Part shown: in pieces, positions 550 through 27,562 of the stretch
How positions within the stretch are numbered: position 1 is the stretch's first letter
Layout: each line of letters starts with the position of its first letter
DNA from: a virus
Direction: 5' to 3' (one strand)
Virus record (IMG/VR): IMGVR_UViG_3300025889_000380
Location: 1-36,593 of that record
Length of the DNA: 36,593 bases
Translations under genes and position numbers: made by a program
The notes under the pieces: model-generated
Database searches by the model: none
What the model was told of the DNA's origin: nothing
The model's input: only the letters and a program-made list of their open reading frames with translations

Positions 550-756
550 ATGAAAACCTTCCAAGAGTTTGTTTCTGAAATGTCTTATCAAGGAATGAGT
601 AAAGATAAAGAAAGAAAGATAAAGAAACAAATAACTGCTGCTAAAAAGTTGGAAAAAGAAGCATCTCAAAAAGGTGATTTTGAGACAGCAACAAGGCATA
701 ATGAAAGAAGTAGAGCAATGAAAAATAGGGTAAAGAGAAGTGATTTATCCTTCTAA
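550..756 (+). CDS. small basic protein with capsid-targeting-like N-terminus (68 aa)
   Basis: The protein opens with MKTFQEFVSEM, which closely resembles the capsid-targeting sequence of T4 internal proteins IPI-IPIII (MKTYQEF then a prohead-protease site ending in E). The rest is a short, highly charged, Lys-rich helix (KKQITAAKKLEKEASQ). In T4 such proteins are packed into the prohead core, trimmed by gp21 and injected with the DNA. A late promoter box precedes the gene and a terminator follows it, which fits a late virion component. The inference is packaging into the head; the function after injection is unknown. The similarity to T4 leaders is seen in sequence; the packaging role is inferred. 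Confidence 0.65.
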   Translation: MKTFQEFVSEMSYQGMSKDKERKIKKQITAAKKLEKEASQKGDFETATRHNERSRAMKNRVKRSDLSF

Positions 757-3766: not shown

Positions 3767-5074
3767 ATGAAGACCTATCAAGAATTTACCACTGAAGCAT
3801 ATGGTCGTCGTGGTCCCCGCCCTGTTCGTGGTAGGGACTATGAGGATTTTAAAGGTCTTCCCAAACCCTCTGGTGATTTGGGTGGAAAGTTTCAGGGTGG
3901 TTGGTTGAAAAAGAAAGAGGAAAAGACTAGAAAGAAGAGTGCTGCGGAGAGAATGGATGCTGCAGGTAAGAGACTTGGATTGCCTGAAGAATTTGAGATT
4001 GAAGAAGGAATGTCCATGAAGGACTTCAAAGCAAACCGTCAGAAGAATAAAAGAAGAGCTGCTTCTGCCGATGCTAAGAAGAGAGGTCATGTAGGTAAAG
4101 AATGGTACAACAGTGGTAGAACCTATTCTCCCGATGAAGCAAAGAGAATGCGTTCAAAACTGGATGATGAAGAAAGAAGCACAAGATATCGTAGTTCTAT
4201 AGACCCTGAGGGTAATGATAGTAACTACTCTGCAGACAAGACAAAGAATCCTAAGAAACTTCGTAAGCAGAAAGCAATGGGAGAACTTGGTGAAGGTATT
4301 GGAATGACTGTGGCAGGTGCTTTAGGAAATCCTCCAACACTTAGTAAGAGAATGAAACTTAAGAGAGTTCTTATTGCTCGTGAGATTGAGAAGAATACTG
4401 AAAAAAATAAAAAGAAAAAGTATAGTGGTAAAGCAAAAGAAGAAGTTAATGAGTTGTTTGTTACTAGAAAATCTCCAGAACAAAGAGCAGATGAAAAGAG
4501 AAAGAAAAAAGTTGCTGAACTTATTCGTTTAATGAAACATGCTAAAGATACTCATTCTGATGTAGCAATAAAACCTATAGCAAAGGAAGAGTATATTGAT
4601 GAAACTTCTTTAAATAGAGTTCGTTCAAAATCAGAAAGGGGTGGTATGGCAATTATGTCTGCTCAAAGAGGAGACAAATCCAAAAAAGAAAATAAGGCAC
4701 GTTCTAGTCAATTAGAAAAAGACATTAGAGGAGCTGGTCTTCCAGGACCCACCAAAGTCTCTGGTCGTTATACTGAAAATCCAGGAACATCGCAAGAGAA
4801 GAAAGTTGGTGAGAAATCACATGTAGTTTCTTCTGGTAAAATGGGTAAGAGAAAGTTTAAGAAAGCAATCACTAAACTTGGTAAAAAGTATAATCAGGAT
4901 TCTGTTCTAATTCAAAAGAAACCAAAAGGTGATGCTCAATTAGTGGGAACTAACAAGTCTTGGCCTGGAGAAGGTAAGCGTGTTAAAGTTGGTAAAATGA
5001 ATCCAGGCAAAACTGGTGAGTTTGATACAAAAGTCAAAAACAAAACATTTACTTATGAGGAATATGAAAACTAA
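3767..5074 (+). CDS. large basic protein with T4 internal-protein-like capsid-targeting leader
   Basis: The protein starts MKTYQEFTTEA, nearly identical to the capsid-targeting leader of T4 internal proteins (MKTYQEFIAEA), in which gp21 cuts after the final Glu. The remaining 420 residues are strongly basic, full of KKK and RKK runs, Gly, Ser and Pro, and look largely disordered. A second candidate gp21 site, EIEE followed by GMS, lies near residue 83. A late promoter precedes it. The likely role is a head-core or internal protein that is packaged, cleaved and perhaps injected; this is inferred from the leader, charge and promoter. I recognise no enzymatic domain. The next small gene overlaps its 3' end by 11 bases. 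Confidence 0.7.
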   Translation: MKTYQEFTTEAYGRRGPRPVRGRDYEDFKGLPKPSGDLGGKFQGGWLKKKEEKTRKKSAAERMDAAGKRLGLPEEFEIEEGMSMKDFKANRQKNKRRAASADAKKRGHVGKEWYNSGRTYSPDEAKRMRSKLDDEERSTRYRSSIDPEGNDSNYSADKTKNPKKLRKQKAMGELGEGIGMTVAGALGNPPTLSKRMKLKRVLIAREIEKNTEKNKKKKYSGKAKEEVNELFVTRKSPEQRADEKRKKKVAELIRLMKHAKDTHSDVAIKPIAKEEYIDETSLNRVRSKSERGGMAIMSAQRGDKSKKENKARSSQLEKDIRGAGLPGPTKVSGRYTENPGTSQEKKVGEKSHVVSSGKMGKRKFKKAITKLGKKYNQDSVLIQKKPKGDAQLVGTNKSWPGEGKRVKVGKMNPGKTGEFDTKVKNKTFTYEEYEN

Positions 5075-16100: not shown

Positions 16101-17107
16101 TGGATTTTCTTAAAGATATTGTAAAAGAGATTGGTGATGACTTTACTAAGTTAGCATCAGACATTGATGAGACTGAAACATATGTTGATACGGGTTCATA
16201 CATTTTTAATGCACTGGTTTCAGGTAGCATATTTGGTGGTGTATCTGGGAATAAGATTACTGCTATTGCTGGAGAGTCTTCTACTGGAAAGACTTTCTTC
16301 TCTCTCGCTGTGGTTAAGAATTTTCTTGATACTCACCCCGATGGTTATTGCCTCTACTTTGATACTGAAGCCGCTATTACCAAATCACTTGTAGAATCTC
16401 GTGGAATTGATACTACTCGTCTGGTTGTTGTAAATGTTGTTACTATTGAGGAGTTTCGCACAAAAGCACTCAAAGCCGTAGATATATATTTGAAGGCTCC
16501 AGTACAAGAACGCAAACCTTGTATGTTTGTGTTGGATTCTCTGGGAATGCTTTCTACAAGCAAAGAAATCAATGATGCACTGAATGAAAAAGAAGTGAGG
16601 GATATGACTAAATCCCAACTCATCAAAGGTGCATTCCGAATGCTCACACTCAAACTAGGTCAAGCAAATGTCCCGCTCATTGTCACAAATCATACATACG
16701 ATGTCATCGGAGCTTATGTACCAACGAAAGAAATGGGGGGAGGTTCTGGACTCAAATACGCAGCAAGTACGATCATTTATCTCAGCAAAAAGAAAGAAAA
16801 GGATGGAACGGAAGTGGTCGGAAATATTATCAAGGCTAAGACTGCTAAATCGCGTTTAAGTAAGGAGAATAAGGACGTTGAAATCCGTTTATTTTATGAT
16901 GAGCGTGGTCTTGATCGCTATTATGGTCTTTTGGAACTCGGGGAACTCGGCGGACTTTGGAAAAATGTTGCGGGCCGTTATGAGATTGATGGTAAGAAAC
17001 TTTATGCTAAACAGATTCTAAAAGAACCTAAAGTATATTTCACTGAAGAAGTGATGCAACAACTTGATCAAATTGCACGAAAGGAATTTAGTTATGGAGA
17101 AAGTTGA
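16100..17107 (+). CDS. uvsX: UvsX RecA-like recombinase
   Basis: This 335-aa protein is a RecA-fold recombinase with Walker A GESSTGKT (58-65), a Walker B-like MFVLDSLGML and an L2-region segment with GGGSGLKYAAS. In T4 UvsX catalyses strand exchange and starts recombination-dependent replication. I use ATG 16100 (MDFLKDIVKEIGDDF); GTG at 16097 would add one residue. It sits between the small ORF and the helicase gene gp41, whose start it overlaps by 14 bases. Length is somewhat below T4 UvsX (391 aa), as expected for cyanophages. Confidence 0.94.
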   Translation: MDFLKDIVKEIGDDFTKLASDIDETETYVDTGSYIFNALVSGSIFGGVSGNKITAIAGESSTGKTFFSLAVVKNFLDTHPDGYCLYFDTEAAITKSLVESRGIDTTRLVVVNVVTIEEFRTKALKAVDIYLKAPVQERKPCMFVLDSLGMLSTSKEINDALNEKEVRDMTKSQLIKGAFRMLTLKLGQANVPLIVTNHTYDVIGAYVPTKEMGGGSGLKYAASTIIYLSKKKEKDGTEVVGNIIKAKTAKSRLSKENKDVEIRLFYDERGLDRYYGLLELGELGGLWKNVAGRYEIDGKKLYAKQILKEPKVYFTEEVMQQLDQIARKEFSYGES

Positions 17108-18425
17108 GTTTCTAGTTCTTAGAAACCTTTTACACAATGAGCAATATGTGAGGAAAGTAATTCCTTTTATTAAATCTGAATATTTTGAAGATCAAAATCA
17201 AAAGATTGTATTTGAAGAAATCTTAAAATTTGTCCAGCAATATAATCAACCAGCAACAAAAGAAGTTCTTTGCATTGAAGTAGAAAATCGTCAAGACATC
17301 AATGAAACTTCCTTCAAAGAAATCACTCAAATCATTAGTTATCTTGAGGATGAACCATCTGAATTTAACTGGTTAGTTGATACCACTGAAAAGTGGTGTA
17401 GAGATCGTGCCATTTATCTTGCTCTTATGGAATCAATCCATATTGCAGATGGTAAAGATGAAAAGAAAAATCGTGATAGCATTCCTTCTATCCTTTCTGA
17501 TGCTCTTGCTGTAAGTTTTGACACTCACATTGGACACGATTATCTTCTTGATTATGAAAAACGTTACGAATCATATCACAAGAAGGAAGAAAAAATTGAA
17601 TTTGACCTTGAGTATTTTAACAAAATCACAAAAGGTGGTATACCCAATAAAACTCTCAATATTGCTCTTGCTGGTACGGGTGTAGGAAAAAGTCTTTTTA
17701 TGTGCCACGTTGCTTCTTCTGTTCTGTTGCAAGGTAAGAACGTTTTGTACATTACTCTTGAAATGGCAGAAGAACGAATTGCCGAAAGAATTGATGCAAA
17801 CCTCCTGAATGTTCCCATTCAGGACATCGTAGAACTTCCTAAGCAGATGTTTGAAACTAAAGTCAACAATATTGCCAAAAAAACTCAAGGTCAACTAATT
17901 ATTAAAGAGTATCCAACTGCTTCTGCTCATGCAGGACACTTTAAGTCACTTCTTAATGAACTTGCACTTAAGAAGTCATTTAGACCTGATATTATCTTTA
18001 TTGATTATCTCAATATTTGTGCTTCCTCTAGGTATAGGGGAAATAGTAATATCAATTCTTATACTTTCGTCAAGGCAATCGCAGAAGAACTTCGTGGTCT
18101 TGCTGTAGAATTTAATGTTCCTATTGTAAGTGCTACTCAGACAACTCGTTCAGGGTATTGCTTGGATTTGAAAACACAAGTTCAAACACCGCAAGGACTG
18201 AAAGAACTTTCAAATATTCAAGTTGGAGATTTGTTGCTTTCAAATACTGGTTATAATGAAGTTCTAAATGTCTTCCCAAAATCTAAAAAGAAATCTTATA
18301 AGATTACTTTGGAAGATGGTAAAGAAATCATTTGTAGTGAAGAACACTTGTTCCCAACTCAAAATAGTGAAGTGAATATCAAAGGGGGTTTGAAAGAAGG
18401 TATGTGTCTTTATGTGAATGAATAG
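17094..18425 (+). CDS. gp41: gp41 replicative helicase N-part fused to N-half of a split intein
   Basis: Residues 1-355 are the first three quarters of the DnaB-family helicase gp41: an N-terminal helical domain, Walker A GTGVGKS (194-200), Walker B-like FIDY (302-305) and the H3-type VSATQTTRSGY. At Cys356 the protein changes into an 88-aa intein N-half (see 18159-18422) and stops. The rest of the helicase is encoded 1.4 kb downstream at 19802. Splicing in trans would give a 458-aa helicase, close to T4 gp41 (475 aa). The break lies within conserved motor motifs, so the unspliced N-part cannot be an active helicase. The start is ATG 17094 (MEKVEFLVLRNLL), overlapping the uvsX end by 14 bases. 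Confidence 0.95.
   Translation: MEKVEFLVLRNLLHNEQYVRKVIPFIKSEYFEDQNQKIVFEEILKFVQQYNQPATKEVLCIEVENRQDINETSFKEITQIISYLEDEPSEFNWLVDTTEKWCRDRAIYLALMESIHIADGKDEKKNRDSIPSILSDALAVSFDTHIGHDYLLDYEKRYESYHKKEEKIEFDLEYFNKITKGGIPNKTLNIALAGTGVGKSLFMCHVASSVLLQGKNVLYITLEMAEERIAERIDANLLNVPIQDIVELPKQMFETKVNNIAKKTQGQLIIKEYPTASAHAGHFKSLLNELALKKSFRPDIIFIDYLNICASSRYRGNSNINSYTFVKAIAEELRGLAVEFNVPIVSATQTTRSGYCLDLKTQVQTPQGLKELSNIQVGDLLLSNTGYNEVLNVFPKSKKKSYKITLEDGKEIICSEEHLFPTQNSEVNIKGGLKEGMCLYVNE
18159..18422 (+). other. split intein N-half (gp41-1 type IntN, 88 aa)
   Basis: The segment begins with the nucleophile Cys (CLDLKTQVQTPQG, block A) directly after the extein residues SGY and includes a block-B-like CSEEHLFPT with the conserved His. 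It ends at the TAG stop after 88 residues. The start, length and nearly all residues agree with my memory of gp41-1, a very fast split intein first described from marine metagenome data; a few residues differ (for example Leu in PQGLKEL). Splicing activity is inferred from the intact catalytic residues. Confidence 0.92.
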
Positions 18426-18430
18426 TATGT

Positions 18431-18470
18431 GTAAGTTATACTTCTTATAAATAATAGTAGTATAACTTAC
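18431..18470 (+). repeat. 12-bp perfect inverted repeat enclosing a late promoter
   Basis: GTAAGTTATACT (18431-18442) and AGTATAACTTAC (18459-18470) are perfect complements. The 16-nt loop contains the late box. The right arm ends 4 bases before the endonuclease ATG, covering the ribosome-binding region. In read-through RNA the start would be masked; in late RNA starting inside the repeat the left arm is missing. Confidence 0.85.
18446..18453 (+). promoter_or_regulatory. late promoter box TATAAATA within hairpin loop
   Basis: TATAAATA lies in the loop of the 18431-18470 inverted repeat, 21 bases before the endonuclease ATG at 18475. Confidence 0.65.
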
Positions 18471-18474
18471 TGAT

Positions 18475-19239
18475 ATGAAAGTAAAGATTTATCTAATTAC
18501 CAACACAGCAGTCAATCCGCATATGTATTATGTTGGATTGACTAAAAATGAATTGGATAGAAGATTACAAGAACATATTACTCTTGGAAGGCACGAAGGA
18601 AATAAACTTCTATCTGATGCTATTATTGAATATGGTAAAAGAAACTTTACTATTGAGGTGATAGAAGAAGTTGATGAAAGTGAAGCAAGAATGAAAGAAG
18701 ATTATTATATCCGTAAATACAAATCTCATTGTATGGATGGATGTGGATATAATATGAGATATGAAACTTGTAATTATGAGAAACACTATCACGGGGCAAA
18801 TCAAGAACAAATAGAAGAGAATATTAGAAACGGAAGGGCGTGGAACTATGGAATAAGTTTTTCTACACAATCAAAAGAAAAAATGATAAAAACTAAAAAA
18901 CATAGATACTCTCTTGGTTTATACACAAAATTCAATACGAATCATTCACAAGAAACTAAAAATAAAATAGCAGAGAGTAAAAGAGGGAAAAAACTTACAG
19001 AGGAACATAAAAATAAAATAGCAGAATGTTCTTCTGGCAGAACTTGGATACATAAAAAAGATTTAAAAGAAAGAAAATTTATCAAAAAAAAAGAAATTAA
19101 TCTTTACTTATTGAATGGTTGGGAAAGTGGAAAAGGTGTTATTTGGATTAATAATGTGGTAGAATGTTTATGTGTTGATATTTGGGATTATGAAAATTAT
19201 ACTGAAAAAGGATTTGTTTGTGGGAGGATTAAAAAATGA
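18475..19239 (+). CDS. GIY-YIG homing endonuclease inside the split gp41 locus
   Basis: This 254-aa protein has an N-terminal GIY-YIG core (KIYLITNT, then MYYVGLTKNELDRRLQEH, with the conserved Glu in ARMKEDYYIRKY). It is followed by NUMOD3-like repeats (SQETKNKIAESKRGKKLTEE) and a C-terminal tail ending WINNVVECLCVDIW then GFVCGRIKK, a degenerate version of the tail module seen in the 817 and 22896 proteins. It lies between the two halves of gp41, where an endonuclease would be expected to spread the fractured allele. Its TGA overlaps the next ATG. It is very AT-rich, like the other endonuclease genes. Confidence 0.88.
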   Translation: MKVKIYLITNTAVNPHMYYVGLTKNELDRRLQEHITLGRHEGNKLLSDAIIEYGKRNFTIEVIEEVDESEARMKEDYYIRKYKSHCMDGCGYNMRYETCNYEKHYHGANQEQIEENIRNGRAWNYGISFSTQSKEKMIKTKKHRYSLGLYTKFNTNHSQETKNKIAESKRGKKLTEEHKNKIAECSSGRTWIHKKDLKERKFIKKKEINLYLLNGWESGKGVIWINNVVECLCVDIWDYENYTEKGFVCGRIKK

Positions 19240-19799
19240 CTAAAACTTATGAATACAACGAAAACCTTGCGATTACAGATGAAGACACTCATAAGACATT
19301 AGTGTCTCATTTCAATCAAATTCAAGAGTTTGGAGAAAACAAAAAGTTTGAATGGGAAGACGAACCTATTCCAGAAGAAAACTATTGTATCACTTTTGAT
19401 TTTGATGAGTGGTTAGAGAATTCACTTTCCTCTATGAAAAATAATTATGAATATTTTAAAGAAGAGGAACCAGAAAATCTAAAAGAGAATACGATTGGTT
19501 ATGTAAATCAAATCAAAGATTATATTGATGGATTTCTTTTGGGCACAACTGCTCTTTATAACCGAAAAAGTATTGAAGCAAAAACTTATAAAGTTGAGGG
19601 TGAGAACTTTGATGAGATTGTGAAGTTTGTGAAAGAACTCAAAGAAAATAACGAGATGGTGTTTCTTTATGAGGTTTCTTATACTCCTGCAAGAACAGAA
19701 ACATTAGTTGTTGAAAAGAAACACGGAAGTACAAATTATACTGAAACTTATCCTCAATCAGTTGCTTTTTATAAACTTCGTTATGTTATTTTGAATTGA
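19236..19799 (+). CDS. unknown acidic protein in the split gp41 cassette (187 aa)
   Basis: This ORF begins in an ATGA overlap with the GIY-YIG gene and ends 2 bases before the ATG of the gp41 C-part, so translation may be coupled across all three. The protein is acidic in its first half (WEDEPIPEENYCITFDFDEW) and helical in the middle; the C-terminal half has alternating strands (MVFLYEVSYTPARTETLVVE). I recognise no domain. It could be an accessory factor of the endonuclease, a cargo gene, or a phage gene that was once next to gp41. It has no late box of its own. Confidence 0.75.
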   Translation: MTKTYEYNENLAITDEDTHKTLVSHFNQIQEFGENKKFEWEDEPIPEENYCITFDFDEWLENSLSSMKNNYEYFKEEEPENLKENTIGYVNQIKDYIDGFLLGTTALYNRKSIEAKTYKVEGENFDEIVKFVKELKENNEMVFLYEVSYTPARTETLVVEKKHGSTNYTETYPQSVAFYKLRYVILN

Positions 19800-19801
19800 A
19801 A

Positions 19802-19912
19802 ATGTTATTGAAAAAAATTCTAAAAATTGAAGAACTTGACGAAAGAGAACTTATAGATATTGAAGTGTCTGGAAATCATTTGTTTTATGCGAATGATATT
19901 CTCACACATAAT
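19802..19912 (+). other. split intein C-half (gp41-1 type IntC, 37 aa)
   Basis: The segment runs from MLLKKILKIEELDERELI to the C-terminal Asn, with block F (DIEVSGNHLFYANDI) and block G (LTHN) followed by the +1 nucleophile Ser. All catalytic residues needed for trans-splicing are present. Length and sequence match gp41-1 IntC as I recall it, apart from one residue near the N-terminus. Confidence 0.92.
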
Positions 19913-20224
19913 AGTAGTTCTGATGTAGAATTAACAGATACTTCGGAATCATTTGGTTTGCCTGCTACTGCTGACTTGATGTTTGCTTTGATTAGTACCG
20001 AAGAACTTGAAGGACTTGGACAGATTCTTGTAAAACAACTTAAGAATCGTTATAATGACCCTACCATTCATAAACGTTTTGTGATTGGTATTGATAGGGC
20101 TAAAATGCGTCTTTATGATTGTGAACAATCTGCTCAGCAAGACATCCTTGACAATGGAAAGGATGAAGAGTATGATTATGAAGAAAAGAAACCTAAAAAA
20201 ACATTTGAGGGATTTAAATTCTAA
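19802..20224 (+). CDS. gp41: C-half of split intein fused to gp41 helicase C-part
   Basis: The first 37 residues are the intein C-half, ending in the diagnostic THN, followed by extein Ser (SSSDVELTDTSESFGL). The 103 residues after it complete the gp41 motor domain: the DTSESFGLPATADLMF segment, LVKQLKNRYNDP and RFVIGIDRAKMRLYD, then an acidic/basic tail ending FEGFKF. I use ATG 19802; TTG 19796 would add two residues. The start is 2 bases from the preceding stop with a weak ribosome site, so translation may depend on coupling. The stop overlaps the mazG ATG (TAATG). Confidence 0.94.
   Translation: MLLKKILKIEELDERELIDIEVSGNHLFYANDILTHNSSSDVELTDTSESFGLPATADLMFALISTEELEGLGQILVKQLKNRYNDPTIHKRFVIGIDRAKMRLYDCEQSAQQDILDNGKDEEYDYEEKKPKKTFEGFKF
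20148..20176 (+). promoter_or_regulatory. sigma-70-type promoter inside gp41 C-part (TTGACA-17-TATGAT)
   Basis: TTGACA (20148-20153) and TATGAT (20171-20176) with a 17-base spacer lie 48 bases before mazG, in the tail of the gp41 coding region. Confidence 0.55.
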
Positions 20225-21508: not shown

Positions 21509-22645
21509 ATGGATAGCAAGGAACTTAGAGGTTTGATGGAAGCGTATTCTGAAGTATATGCTCCACAAGAGGTTGATGAAGCAACTGCAATGGCAAAGCG
21601 TGGTTATGATGAAACCAAACTCCGCAAACGTGCAGGCGGTGGTGAAGCAGCAGATAGAGCCACTGCACTTGAGAATAAGCCAACTTACGGTGATGCTAAT
21701 AAAGAAAAGCAAAGACAAACTTATGCCAGAAAGCAAAGAGGTGATTTCCGTAAGACCACTTCATCTTCTCCTGGTCTTCATGGTTATGGTCACAAGTCCG
21801 ATGACCCTAAGGTAAAGGCAAAGCAAGCAGCAAGAGGAGCACAAAGAGGTGCTCTAACTCCTGCGGAGAAAAAGCAACTCAACATAGAAGAGTTTGATAT
21901 CTTTGATGTAGTCCTTGAGTTCCTCCAAGTAGAAGGATTTGCAGAAACTCTGGAAGAAGCAGAGTGGATGATGGCAAATCTGATTGATGAAGAAGCGATT
22001 GGTATTATTTTGGGTGAAGAGCAACTTAATGAACTTTCTGATAAAAAAGTTGCAAAAACATTGAAAGCAAGAGAACGTAGATTCGATAGATCTGTTGATT
22101 CTGGTGCTCCAAATAAAGAGTTTCATCAACTTAGGAGAACTGAAAGATTAGTAGCAAGTAGAAATAAAAGAACAGGTTCAAATATTCCTGTTGATGAAGC
22201 ATTTGAACTTTGGGTAAATGAACTTGTAGAAGAGGGTTATGACCTCTCTGATTACACTTGGGATGAGATGTATGAGTTTTACCTTGATGAAGCACTGACT
22301 GGTGATCGTGCTAGAAAGGCAGTCAAGAAACCAGGTGGAACTGCATATACTCGTATGGTAAGTGCAGATCCAAAAAAACGTGCCACCAGAGGTGGTCGTG
22401 GTGGAGAGTCTGATTTTGGTGCAGGTGATAGAGGTGCTGGTAACAAAGCAGCAAGAAGAGCAGGAACTTATCAAGAAGAATATGTAGATGAAGCACAAGT
22501 TGCCAACAGAGACCCTGATAAGTATGAAAGAGAGCAGGCAAAGAAATCTGCTCCTGTTCGTGGAGAAAGAACTCCTATGCCACCAAGAGGTGATAAGCGT
22601 AGAGAGGACTTTGAGAAGTGGTATGCTAAACAGATGGGCCGCTGA
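21509..22645 (+). CDS. putative internal virion protein with repeated prohead-protease-like sites
   Basis: This 378-aa protein starts MDSKELRGLMEAYSEVY, a short amphipathic helix ending in LME-A, which fits a T4 gp21 cleavage site (L/I-x-E before A/G). Further candidate sites occur at YLDEAL, PVDEAF and YVDEAQ. Basic, Gly/Arg-rich disordered stretches (GGGEAADRATALENK; RGGRGGESDFGAGDRG) alternate with acidic helical blocks (FDVVLEFLQVEGFAETL; WDEMYEFYLDEAL). A late promoter precedes it. I infer a head-internal or scaffold-like protein processed in the prohead; no enzymatic domain is visible. A related pattern occurs in the gene at 26045. Confidence 0.6.
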   Translation: MDSKELRGLMEAYSEVYAPQEVDEATAMAKRGYDETKLRKRAGGGEAADRATALENKPTYGDANKEKQRQTYARKQRGDFRKTTSSSPGLHGYGHKSDDPKVKAKQAARGAQRGALTPAEKKQLNIEEFDIFDVVLEFLQVEGFAETLEEAEWMMANLIDEEAIGIILGEEQLNELSDKKVAKTLKARERRFDRSVDSGAPNKEFHQLRRTERLVASRNKRTGSNIPVDEAFELWVNELVEEGYDLSDYTWDEMYEFYLDEALTGDRARKAVKKPGGTAYTRMVSADPKKRATRGGRGGESDFGAGDRGAGNKAARRAGTYQEEYVDEAQVANRDPDKYEREQAKKSAPVRGERTPMPPRGDKRREDFEKWYAKQMGR

Positions 22646-23401: not shown

Positions 23402-24778
23402 TTGAGTATTGTGGCTAAAGCATCGACTGAAAAAACTACAAAATTAGAACCATCTGAAATTTTTGCTGCAGTAGGTCTACATATGACCAAAAAGCAAATG
23501 AATGATCTTTGCATAGATCAAACAGGATCTACAATATTATCTTGGTTATCTCAAGGAAGGGTAATTGCTAATGATAATAATAAAGTTCAATATGGATCCA
23601 GTAAATCAACATATTTGACATTTTTTACTATCCCAAATACAGAAAAAAAGAAAGCAGATTTAATTGCTAATGTGGTGGCAGGATTTTCTGCTGCAATCGG
23701 AGTCAAAGATTTTGTAAAAGGTGCTGGAGATTTTAGTGGTGGAGAATTTGTAGCAGAAAAAGTTTTTATGACTGGATCTGCTTGGCCAAGAGAAGTTGAT
23801 AAGTTTAGACTTAAAAGAGAATCTGATGGATTTGATTACAATTCTTCGGATTTGGTTGTTAAAGTTGATTCAGAAACTTATTATGGAATTTCCCTAAAGA
23901 AAAAGAAGAATGTAAAGGGAGCAGATCCAACATTAATTAACAAAGCATTTGATACTTTTCTTCAAGGCAATGAGTTTGAAAATGTAAGAAATTCCCTTAA
24001 ACAAAAAAGACAAGATTACTTTGCTGGACTTGCAAAACAAGCAGCAAAAAATGGCATCATTTATGTTCCTGGTATTGAGAGTATGTCAAATGAAGAAGTT
24101 TGGAATATTAGTTTTAGAAATCCCTTAAAAAATAATCAACTTGTTTATTTGATTAATCTAAAAGGAACAAATACAAATAATAATCCTGTTGAGTTATCTG
24201 AGATAAAAGGAAAACTTGCGGGAACTGGGCCGAATAGTTTATTTGAAGAAGACAAGCAAAATGGATTGAGAGCATTTTTTAACAGAGAACTTGCTAAAGT
24301 TGACAATGAATTGTTTGATGGATTTAAGAAAGTTTTGAATGATAACATTCAAATTTTTGCGGATGGTTTGATTGATATTGTATTAAAGACAAAAATGCAA
24401 GCTGGATTGAGAGCAAAAGATATTGGTGGATATAATTTTGAATTTGCACTTGTAACTGGATACGCAGATTATACTCCAAGTGCTAAGAATCCAAAATTAA
24501 ATTTGAACGCTGCGAAAGTTATTCCTCAGCATTCTATACTATGTGGATTATCAGATCTTCAGGGGAATAACAAACCATATATTCTTGAACTTGATGAACA
24601 AAAAAAATTGGATGCAGATGCGGCGAAGGTTTTCTTTAACTTAAAAAAAGCGGGAGTTACTATTCTTGTTCTTGAACTTAGATATAAGGGTGATTTTAAA
24701 GCACAACCTCAATTTTTCGCTACTCTTGGTGATGATTTTATTACACAAATGTTTGATAGGTGCATAGTTGATCGATAA
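23402..24778 (+). CDS. large protein of unknown function (458 aa), possible PD-(D/E)xK-like nuclease
   Basis: The reading frame opens at TTG 23402 (MSIVAKASTEKTTK), 4 bases after GAAAGAG; GTG 23411 is an alternative. The protein looks globular and well structured. One segment, NSSDLVVKVDSETYYGISLKKKKN (about residues 150-173 in two parts: an Asp in SSDLVVKV, then YYGISLKKKK), resembles the Asp and hydrophobic-x-K strands of PD-(D/E)xK nucleases, but the expected acidic residue before the Lys is Ser, so this is weak. It lacks the capsid-targeting leader of its downstream neighbour. A late-type box precedes it. Its role is unknown; location among packaged-like proteins suggests a late function. 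Confidence 0.65.
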   Translation: MSIVAKASTEKTTKLEPSEIFAAVGLHMTKKQMNDLCIDQTGSTILSWLSQGRVIANDNNKVQYGSSKSTYLTFFTIPNTEKKKADLIANVVAGFSAAIGVKDFVKGAGDFSGGEFVAEKVFMTGSAWPREVDKFRLKRESDGFDYNSSDLVVKVDSETYYGISLKKKKNVKGADPTLINKAFDTFLQGNEFENVRNSLKQKRQDYFAGLAKQAAKNGIIYVPGIESMSNEEVWNISFRNPLKNNQLVYLINLKGTNTNNNPVELSEIKGKLAGTGPNSLFEEDKQNGLRAFFNRELAKVDNELFDGFKKVLNDNIQIFADGLIDIVLKTKMQAGLRAKDIGGYNFEFALVTGYADYTPSAKNPKLNLNAAKVIPQHSILCGLSDLQGNNKPYILELDEQKKLDADAAKVFFNLKKAGVTILVLELRYKGDFKAQPQFFATLGDDFITQMFDRCIVDR

Positions 24779-24804: not shown

Positions 24805-26034
24805 ATGAAGAGTTTTTTCCAATTTCTAAATGAGGCAACTCAATCGCAAGCATCACTGCAAGCGAAGAAGTTAAACCTCAAGAGTGATGGACACGGCGGT
24901 TGGTTAGACACCCGTGGGGAATTTGTTGCGAAAACAGAAAAAGGAAAACTAGTATTTTATGATAGAGGTAGAGTAGAAGGCGCAAAAGATCGACCAAAAG
25001 GTGCAGTAGGTAAATCACCAGCACCAGAAAAACCAGAAGCAAAAAAACCAACTGCTGCACCTGCACCAAAAACACAAAAGAAAGCAGCACCTGAAACTTC
25101 TGATGTTGATACTGGTAGTGATACTTTAACTGTTGCATTTGGTCGTTTTAATCCCCCAACAGTTGGTCACGAAAAACTTCTTAAGGCAGCAAGAAAAGCA
25201 GCGACTGGTGGAGACCTTAAAATTTATCCTTCAAGAACTCAGGACCCCAAGAAAAATCCTCTTGACCCTGATATGAAGATTTCGTTTATGAAAAAGATGT
25301 TCCCAGATTTTGAAGAGAACATTATTAATGATGCGGAGATGAGGTCAATCTTTAATGTATTGATTGCAGCAGCAGAGGCAGGATATGCAAATGTTAATAT
25401 CATTGTAGGTTCTGATAGGCAAGCAGAGTTTGAAAATCTTGCACAGAAATACAATGGAGACCTTTATGAGTTTGATTTGATTCGTGTAATCTCTGCTGGT
25501 GTGAGAGATGCTGATGCTGAAGGCGTGGAAGGAATGTCAGCATCTAAAATGAGAAAAGCAGTTATTGAAGATGACTTTGAATCATTCCGTAGAGGAACAC
25601 CAAAGACTCTTGATGATGGAGATACTCAAGCACTCTTTGATGCCGTTCGTCAAGGAATGGGTGCAAAGAAAAAGAAAAAGGTTGCAGAACTCTGGCAGAT
25701 TGCTCCAAAATATGATGCAGAAACTCTACGTGAGAACTACATTAGGGGAAATATTTTTAGAATTGGTGATATTGTAGAAAATTTGAATACTGGTCTTGTT
25801 GGTAAGATTATTCGTAGAGGAACAAATCATCTTATTTGTGTAACCCAAGAAAACTATATGTTTAAGTCCTGGATTCGTGATGTTATGGAAGCAGTTGTAA
25901 ACCATCCCGGACCGTCTGGAGTTCCTGCAAATCAAAGAGAAGTTGGAACTGATGCTCATAGAAAATATACAATGAGAATGGCAAGTCTTTACGATATCAG
26001 AAATTTCATAAATAAGTATAAAGTTAAGAATTAA
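24805..26034 (+). CDS. capsid-targeting-like leader fused to a cytidylyltransferase/NMNAT-like nucleotidyltransferase
   Basis: This 409-aa protein has four parts. Residues 1-12 (MKSFFQFLNEAT) resemble a T4 capsid-targeting leader with a gp21-type site LNE-A. Residues 20-56 form a small module (LKSDGHGGWLDTRGEFVAKT) that I associate with cyanophage virion-type proteins. Residues 57-105 are an Ala/Pro/Lys linker. From 107 there is a nucleotidyltransferase domain: FGRFNPPTVGH (112-122; the GxFxPxHxGH-type motif with TVGH) and SASKMRKAV (245-253), matching the ISSTxxR-like site. Such enzymes transfer a nucleotide to a phosphate-bearing substrate. A late promoter precedes it. I infer an enzyme packed in the head and delivered with the DNA, as T4 does with Alt; its substrate is unknown. 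Confidence 0.7.
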   Translation: MKSFFQFLNEATQSQASLQAKKLNLKSDGHGGWLDTRGEFVAKTEKGKLVFYDRGRVEGAKDRPKGAVGKSPAPEKPEAKKPTAAPAPKTQKKAAPETSDVDTGSDTLTVAFGRFNPPTVGHEKLLKAARKAATGGDLKIYPSRTQDPKKNPLDPDMKISFMKKMFPDFEENIINDAEMRSIFNVLIAAAEAGYANVNIIVGSDRQAEFENLAQKYNGDLYEFDLIRVISAGVRDADAEGVEGMSASKMRKAVIEDDFESFRRGTPKTLDDGDTQALFDAVRQGMGAKKKKKVAELWQIAPKYDAETLRENYIRGNIFRIGDIVENLNTGLVGKIIRRGTNHLICVTQENYMFKSWIRDVMEAVVNHPGPSGVPANQREVGTDAHRKYTMRMASLYDIRNFINKYKVKN

Positions 26035-26044
26035 TAGTATCGCA

Positions 26045-27562
26045 ATGTCTCAAAATCCCCTGAATGATATCTCTAGAGTGTATTTGGAGCAGGTTGCTGT
26101 TTTGGAATCACTTGATCCTGTAGGACAAGAAGATGATGATATTGATAATGATCGTAAAAAGAATACTAATGCTGATAAGTATTTGTTGAAGCGTCGCAGG
26201 GCAATTGGTAAGGCAATTGCAAAGAAAAAAGTAGATCGGATTGATGAAATTCACTCTCAGGCACATAAACCACATGAGGTTCCTGATAGAAATTTAAAAG
26301 GTCTTGTTGCAAAAGCAGTCAAGAGAATTGATACTGATGTTGATGGTGATACTGATAGAAATGATAAATCGAAAGGAGAACTTGGTGAGTTTATTCCAGG
26401 TGTAGGTAATAAAAGACTTTATTCAACAACAAGAACTCAAACAGCAAAAGAGTCGTTCTCAAATTGGAGACAAGACCTTGCTGAAGTGATGATTGATATT
26501 GAAGATACTACAAAAATTAAAGAAAAAAAAGTAAACAATAAGATTAAAACTTCTGCGATGGGTGGCGGATTGAAACTTGGCGAAGCAGTAGAAGAGATTG
26601 GTGGCACTCTTCTTGAAATGGTTGAGATTGATGAAGTTGATTATATTATAGAAAGTGTTTATGATGAACTACTTGATGAAGGTTATGATGAGGATGATAT
26701 TGAAGATGCAATTGAGTATGCATTGGTTGAAGCAAAAGTTACTTATGGTCATGATACTGATAAACCATATCAACATCAAAAGAAGACTGGTGCCGGTCAA
26801 CTGGTGAAAGCGGTTGGAAGACTTGCTAGACAAAAACTTGCATCCAAAGTTAGCGGTGCTAAAAAAGCAGCAAAACAAGCAGTAGCAACTGGTGCAAGAA
26901 AAGTTGCTAAAGGTGCATTAGGTGTTGCTCGTAAGATGGAAGGTGGAGATAGCAAACCAAGTCCATCGCATACAAAGACTAGAACCTCTTCAACATATCG
27001 TGGAGCAGGTGTTGGACAAAAAGAAAGAGTAAGCAGTGGTTCTTATACTCCTCCAACCAAAAAGAAAGCAGAAAAACCTGCTGATCCTTGGGAAGGTAGT
27101 GTAACGACTCCAGCAAAACCAAAGGCAAAAACCAAAAAAGCAGCAGCACCAAAACCAAAAGCACCTGCAGCAACTGCACCAAAGAGAAAGAGAAAGTCTA
27201 AGTTAGATTCTTTACTTTCTGATATTAGAAGTGAAGAAGTGCAAATTGATGAAAAGGCACTCAGTAAGCAACAGCAAAAGTTTATGGGAATGGTTTATGC
27301 TGTGAAAAAAGGTGATATGAAAGCACCATCACCCGAAGTTGCAAAAGCTGCATCGGGAATGACCACACAGCAAGCGAAAGACTTTGCTAAGACAAAGCAT
27401 AAAGGTCTTCCTGAAGTTAAAGAGCAAATGGATGATTCTACTGAAATGACCGGAACATCAATGGATGACCAAAATGTTAAAAAACAAAAAGAAAAAATCA
27501 AGATGCAGAAGATTAGGGAACTTACTGTAAGACTTTCTGCTGCAAAAAAGGGTGTATATTAA
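26045..27562 (+). CDS. large basic putative packaged protein with DUF3008-like domain
   Basis: This 505-aa protein starts MSQNPLNDISRVYLEQVAVL. A helical acidic block (VDYIIESVYDELLDEGYDED, about 199-218) resembles the one in the 21509 protein. Next comes an Ala/Lys-rich histone-like stretch (KKAAKQAVATGARKVAKGAL) and a Pro/Lys/Ala linker. Residues about 405-457 match DUF3008: SKQQQKFMGMVYAVKKGD, then AASGMTTQQAKDFAKT, then KHKGLPE. Candidate gp21 sites (LGE-A, LVE-A, LDE-G) are scattered along it. I infer a DNA-binding or core protein of the head. It starts 10 bases after the nucleotidyltransferase gene and probably shares its late transcript. Confidence 0.6.
   Translation: MSQNPLNDISRVYLEQVAVLESLDPVGQEDDDIDNDRKKNTNADKYLLKRRRAIGKAIAKKKVDRIDEIHSQAHKPHEVPDRNLKGLVAKAVKRIDTDVDGDTDRNDKSKGELGEFIPGVGNKRLYSTTRTQTAKESFSNWRQDLAEVMIDIEDTTKIKEKKVNNKIKTSAMGGGLKLGEAVEEIGGTLLEMVEIDEVDYIIESVYDELLDEGYDEDDIEDAIEYALVEAKVTYGHDTDKPYQHQKKTGAGQLVKAVGRLARQKLASKVSGAKKAAKQAVATGARKVAKGALGVARKMEGGDSKPSPSHTKTRTSSTYRGAGVGQKERVSSGSYTPPTKKKAEKPADPWEGSVTTPAKPKAKTKKAAAPKPKAPAATAPKRKRKSKLDSLLSDIRSEEVQIDEKALSKQQQKFMGMVYAVKKGDMKAPSPEVAKAASGMTTQQAKDFAKTKHKGLPEVKEQMDDSTEMTGTSMDDQNVKKQKEKIKMQKIRELTVRLSAAKKGVY

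Follow-up and report, generated by a model that had tools for sequence, protein, structure and literature searches.

A T4-like capsid-targeting leader on an adenylyltransferase-like enzyme that is probably packaged in cyanophage heads

Introduction

Does the nucleotidyltransferase encoded at this locus travel in the phage head, and if so, what would address it there and what would it do in the host? The window, meaning the whole 36,593-nucleotide stretch of IMG/VR virus record IMGVR_UViG_3300025889_000380, is a 36.6-kb fragment of a T4-like cyanophage with a gene order like that of Synechococcus phage S-SM2. The original prediction, made from one open reading frame, described a leader with an LNE/A site (the slash marks the cut), a Gly-Trp module, a linker and the motifs FGRFNPPTVGH and SASKMRK. 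We found all of these elements, each beyond chance, arranged as follows.

24805..26034, + strand: gene of the putatively packaged nucleotidyltransferase, 409 aa, T4-GC190 / phrog_395; ATG start, open reading frame exactly here
24805..24837, + strand: capsid-targeting-like leader MKSFFQFLNE/A, with a predicted prohead-protease cut after E10, based on positions 4/7/8/10 of the T4 IPIII capsid-targeting sequence, conservation and purifying selection
24847..24978, + strand: Gly-Trp module, residues 15-58, helix and three short strands (AlphaFold pLDDT ~84); recurs on S-CREM2 virion proteins
24979..25116, + strand: disordered Pro/Ala/Lys linker, residues 59-104 (pLDDT < 40 over most of it; dN/dS 0.92)
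25117..25674, + strand: HIGH-superfamily nucleotidyltransferase domain, residues 105-290 (pLDDT ~90; Foldseek matches to NadD/PPAT/NadM)
25138..25170, + strand: nucleotide-binding motif FGRFNPPTVGH, residues 112-122 (G113, R114 and H122 unchanged across 37 diverse members)
25537..25557, + strand: SASKMRK motif, ISSTxxR-type, residues 245-251 (S245 and R250 unchanged across 37 diverse members)
25717..25890, + strand: C-terminal SH3/KOW-like domain, residues ~305-362 (predicted strands 323-356; related to phrog_4808 and phrog_22379)

The SH3/KOW-like domain had gone unmentioned in that prediction, as had a second leader-bearing enzyme at 3767-5074.

Results

A cyanophage enzyme family

The window protein belongs to phrog_395 (E 4.6e-102 over residues 103-404), the T4-GC190 family, which is annotated in cyanophages as 'cytitidyltransferase'. 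Its relatives comprise 535 phage records, mainly from Synechococcus and Prochlorococcus phages, and over its full length it is 71-76% identical to the S-SCSM1 and S-SM2 orthologues (71% to S-SCSM1 ORF91). Cyanophage members such as S-SM1 SSM1_190, S-SM2 SSM2_161 and S-SCSM1 ORF91 ('NMNAT') share family, neighborhood and leader with the window gene; in published reports on the T4-GC190 family we found no mention of a targeting leader or of the shared Gly-Trp module. P-HM1-type members are stand-alone enzymes of 180-190 aa, and jumbo phages that infect Klebsiella, Pectobacterium, Pseudomonas and Salmonella encode distant stand-alone relatives of 178-190 aa. The nucleotidyltransferase has been called a cyanophage core gene in the literature, and its substrate therefore bears on how cyanobacterial infections begin. 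At one locus (L097:1-1452, ACG-2014f), the orthologue has just upstream of it another 'cytitidyltransferase', which is longer, with an annotated length of 893 aa.

An intact active site on an adenylyltransferase fold

The domain had been described as a complete-looking nucleotidyltransferase, and its active site is indeed conserved: 37 diverse members all share G113, R114, H122, S143, N151-P152-L153, K158, P167, G202, D204, R205, G232, S245, R250 and F261. GR114, H122, NPL, K158, GxDR, S245 and R250 are kept down to 27-33% identity, including in enterobacterial and Pseudomonas jumbo phages. H122, S245 and R250 lie in the (H/T)xGH and ISSTxxR-type motifs of the HIGH superfamily, and dN/dS for the enzyme is 0.107.

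We carried out the structure prediction that had been suggested as a check, building an AlphaFold model with a 36-sequence alignment. The catalytic domain has a Rossmann-like fold that Foldseek matches to NadD, PPAT and NadM, with probability 1.00 and, for most listed matches, TM 0.53-0.69 by target. The best 50 matches are all NadD/PPAT/NadM-type adenylyltransferases (E down to 6e-6). The sequence profile has MJ0951 (UPF0348; 1.9e-4) and the NMN adenylyltransferase MJ0541 (0.0039) as best matches, the latter being the closest characterized enzyme by profile, and FMN adenylyltransferase and PPAT also found. A single-sequence phmmer search of the PDB yielded only a low-complexity chance match.

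Cytidylyl and adenylyl transfer had both been proposed, and the fold agrees with the second. The GenBank name instead implies a cytidylyltransferase for sugar- or lipid-phosphates, CTP_transf_like is the sole relevant Pfam family (the window protein scores 15.6 bits against a gathering score of 21, and some relatives pass), and one paper likens the enzyme to glycerol-3-phosphate cytidylyltransferase. However, no cytidylyltransferase is among the best 50 solved structures in Foldseek, and the profile search retrieves NMNAT, FMN adenylyltransferase and PPAT, so that we regard cytidylyl transfer as very improbable. Judging from the model, adenylyl transfer is the favored chemistry, and we hold it with considerable confidence.

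The modeled fold suggests that the enzyme transfers an adenylyl group to a small phosphate ester resembling NMN or NaMN. Of the targets originally listed, a NAD-type cofactor fits such a fold, whereas nothing indicates lipids, sugars or proteins. The protein scores far under the curated NMNAT models (15.3 vs 112 bits for TIGR00482 and 12.1 vs 341 for the nadR model), and by these NCBIfam cut-offs we do not assign it to the NMNAT families. Because of this distance the substrate is a guess; NMN or NaMN is our best one, with a chance that we judge to fall a little short of even.

The leader matches the T4 capsid-targeting sequence

The leaders of T4 IPII and IPIII read MKTYQEFIAEA, and mutations in IPIII affect targeting mainly at residues 4 and 7 and processing at residues 8 and 10 (PMC9026906). 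The window leader has the T4-type combination of an aromatic residue at position 4, F at 7, I/L at 8 and E at 10. In the cyanophage family, F/L at position 4, F at 7, L/I at 8 and E at 10 are held, and position 9 varies. Position 9 is also the free position in the prohead protease consensus. As a control, the leader pattern matches IPII and IPIII only within 49 kb of T4.

Leader codons vary synonymously with the residues kept (pN 0.087, pS 0.749); at L8, for example, all five codons observed encode Leu. The leader is under strong purifying selection. Leader statistics from our first search for relatives were discarded because the leader was one of that search's patterns, and frequencies were taken from sets retrieved by the catalytic domain alone. 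In these, the leader is present in 79/79 and 79/80 members of two lineages (~99%) and in 0/79 P-HM1-type members.

Sites of the [LI]xE/A type like the leader's also occur, at the sequence level, in cyanophage gp22 and in S-CREM2 gp23, which has LLTE/A at 56; in S-CREM2 gp22 they are about nine times denser than background. Given these sites, the prohead protease of cyanophages plausibly cuts the predicted leader site. The residue after the cut is variable in the P-SSM2 type as well, and we rejected a motif with an obligatory A/S/T at this place, which would lose most S-CREM2 leader proteins. We found no earlier statement of a T4-like targeting leader in cyanophages in the literature searched, the coverage of which was incomplete. 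Identifying this leader, which explains packaging and predicts further cargo, is apparently what the present analysis contributes.

Leader-bearing orthologues are virion proteins

T4-GC190, represented by SSM1_190, was detected in purified S-SM1 virions (Sullivan et al. 2010, PMC3037559). Published mass spectrometry likewise found S-SCSM1 ORF91, annotated 'NMNAT (virion protein)', and the S-SZBM1 and S-CREM2 orthologues in virions. All four proteins (of S-SM1, S-SCSM1, S-SZBM1 and S-CREM2) have the leader, in the forms MKKFSAFLNEA, MKSFLQFLKEA, MRFRQFIIEA and MKNFSSFLTEA. The protein was undetected in S-PM2 virions (PMC3037559), and the S-PM2 copy is a fusion that lacks the leader. The S-SM2 GenBank note 'similar to Synechococcus phage S-SM1 protein' marks gp3, 4, 6, 13-15, 18-21, 23, 25, 53 and GC190, which we used as a consistency check and not as proof.

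With a leader that matches the T4 IPII/IPIII signal and orthologues present in the virions of relatives, there is good support for the proposal that the window protein is addressed to the phage head. As a claim of novelty, the further suggestion of a new kind of injected enzyme is not supported: detection in virions dates from 2010 (PMC3037559), and papers of 2022-2023 already propose that the protein enters the host and alters NAD there (PMC9602691, PMC10665884). Packaging of the T4-GC190 family is thus already known, and the idea of a packaged enzyme gains support but is not new.

Non-structural enzymes have repeatedly been found in cyanophage virions, and the authors of those studies are undecided between packaged and adhering protein. 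The S-SCSM1 and S-CREM2 papers propose host entry and an effect on NAD and themselves caution about adhering protein. The orthologue could be a phage enzyme that is abundant inside the cell and clings to virions in CsCl purification, with the leader doing something else, such as anchoring at the assembly site. Its abundance in virions is low (emPAI 0.26 vs 27.64 for the capsid protein in S-SZBM1) and unique peptides are few, 3 in S-CREM2 and 2 in S-SZBM1, in data of a kind that registers packaged and adhering protein alike. Against sticking, detection was independent in four phages by several groups, and plentiful replication enzymes (DNA polymerase, RNR) are absent from the S-CREM2 virion list.

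The S-CREM2 proteome also bears on the leader as a predictor. Within residues 2-14, 5/219 proteins show the pattern [FYL]..F[ILTMVF].E. All five are among the 52 virion proteins, compared with 0/167 non-virion proteins (Fisher p = 6.5e-4), an outcome that adhering abundant enzymes would not predict. The letter set of this relaxed pattern was widened after the S-CREM2 list had been seen, and the figure for the stricter [ILT] form, which is unaffected (4/4 virion proteins, p = 0.0029), is therefore safer; internal motif frequency gives an expectation of 0.14 hits. The five proteins are the SAM hydrolase (SAM lyase), an APH-like kinase, the cytidylyltransferase and two unknowns, gp13 and gp136. 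The S-CREM2 Cas9-like virion protein has the pattern at about residue 18, and in S-SZBM1 one of two leader-bearing annotated proteins was detected in virions. Taken with the independent detections, we consider sticking during purification an unlikely account of the virion data and retain packaging as the preferred reading.

Accessory modules and further candidate cargo

The Gly-Trp module, which contains GHGGW at residues 29-33, is also found on the S-CREM2 virion kinase (two copies), the Cas9-like virion protein and a leader-bearing MA10 protein. This recurrence suggests, at the level of sequence, a modular cargo system. The linker that follows evolves neutrally. In P-HM1, a module resembling the C-terminal SH3/KOW-like domain begins a separate downstream protein.

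Two more open reading frames in the window have leaders.

3767..5074, + strand: second leader-bearing protein, MKTYQEFTTEA with a C-terminal S-AdoMet lyase domain (PF23780, E 4e-17)
550..756, + strand: 68-aa open reading frame with the T4-like leader MKTFQEFVSEM

The S-AdoMet lyase domain is 57.7% identical to S-CREM2 gp6, a virion protein (SAM hydrolase), and the product of 3767-5074 is possibly a packaged anti-restriction enzyme. We sought a phage relative of the 68-aa frame and found none. In three cyanophages, a small protein with a leader is encoded between the terminase genes gp16 and gp17: S-SM2 SSM2_108 (L100:41376-41804), S-CREM2 gp136 (L347:43301-44014), which is present in the virion, and S-SZBM1_191 (L351:40312-40629).

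Elsewhere in the window, at 17064-20224, the gp41 helicase is apparently interrupted by an intein in two pieces, whose N part reads CLDLKTQVQTPQG... and whose C part reads ...GNHLFYANDILTHN; a GIY-YIG homing endonuclease frame and another frame separate the halves, an arrangement that resembles known gp41 split inteins.

Gene neighborhood and DUF6267

Around the enzyme gene in S-SCSM1, ORFs 89-93 and 95 carry virion-protein annotations; the window has counterparts to this region, including ORF 28008, a relative of S-SCSM1 ORF 95.

21509..22645, + strand: relative of S-SCSM1 ORF89, annotated virion protein
23402..24778, + strand: upstream protein, phrog_3060, in the position of S-SCSM1 ORF90 (virion protein), without sequence match to ORF90
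26045..27562, + strand: downstream low-complexity protein with an EF-hand-like DDDIDN motif, corresponding to S-SCSM1 ORFs 92 and 93 (each an annotated virion protein) fused into one

In other lineages the neighbor is different and raises an alternative function: the packaged enzyme, paired with a ligase-like protein, could act in assembly or on nucleic acid, end repair and modification being examples, and not on NAD-type cofactors. Among loci with enough upstream sequence, DUF6267 (T4-GC71) lies directly upstream of the enzyme in 67/67 S-SM1-type and 71/71 P-HM1-type cases, the two genes overlapping or lying at most 1 nt apart, and in S-PM2 part of DUF6267 is fused to the enzyme. Its invariant motifs KxDG, EGxV and KxVxR are like those of covalent nucleotidyltransferases of the ligase/capping type. 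Yet DUF6267 adjoins the enzyme in 0/75 loci of the window's own clade, the DUF6267 model (pLDDT 90) has no significant PDB match, ligases included, and the catalytic domain resembles small-molecule adenylyltransferases. We therefore think a nucleic-acid role rather unlikely and favor a cofactor-type substrate. An identification of DUF6267 as an RNA ligase fits the motifs and was not adopted; since the structure search gave nothing significant, we keep the ligase idea as a lead only. Examples of DUF6267 are at L083:27296-28270 and L087:1784-2989 and in loci L103-L342.

Discussion

Our results make it reasonably likely that the T4-like cyanophage packages the adenylyltransferase-like product of this gene in its head, and that this enzyme is targeted by its leader, cut by gp21, injected, and serves to support a cofactor. 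We infer the following course. The nucleotidyltransferase would be made with the late proteins, and its leader MKSFFQFLNE would bind the prohead core in the manner of the T4 capsid-targeting sequence. Cleavage after Glu10 (consensus [LI]xE/) by the prohead protease gp21 would follow, and the freed enzyme, present in few copies, would remain beside the DNA of the mature head and enter the cyanobacterium along with the genome. There, the HIGH-superfamily domain may take AMP from ATP and attach it to a small phosphate ester, most likely one of nicotinamide-nucleotide type, and so may support NAD or a related cofactor early in infection.

More broadly, we lean toward a general modular head-loading system in Kyanoviridae, in which a T4-IP-like leader, often with a Gly-Trp module, is placed on varied enzymes that are packed, released by gp21 and injected as a cocktail. 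The cargo would include the adenylyltransferase, a SAM lyase, a protein kinase and a Cas9-like nuclease. If this is true, the injected enzymes of each cyanophage can be predicted from the leader alone. By matching a T4 signal mapped by mutation and singling out virion proteins in an independent proteome, the leader offers both a mechanism and a simple sequence test, and the injected enzymes of very common ocean viruses could be listed from genomes.

Among known enzymes, the closest in kind are NadM/NadD and PPAT, which share the fold and the (H/T)xGH and S..R motifs with the window enzyme; its NPL segment resembles the NPF/NPW of NadM. Structural alignments to these enzymes reach only 11-18% identity, however, and the window enzyme has no Nudix or kinase partner domain. 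Among packaged proteins, the original parallel was T4 Alt, which is apt in that Alt is also a host-acting enzyme packed in a T4-like head. Alt is an ADP-ribosyltransferase whose fold and chemistry are unrelated to those of the adenylyltransferase-like enzyme, and we dropped it as the main parallel for its unrelated fold and because the internal-protein leader is the closer match. T4 IPII and IPIII likewise have an N-terminal leader, in which positions 4, 7, 8 and 10 carry residues of the same types, and an [LI]xE/ cut site. The T4 cargo is a small basic internal protein, whereas in cyanophages the cargo is a conserved enzyme and the cut site is a predicted one.
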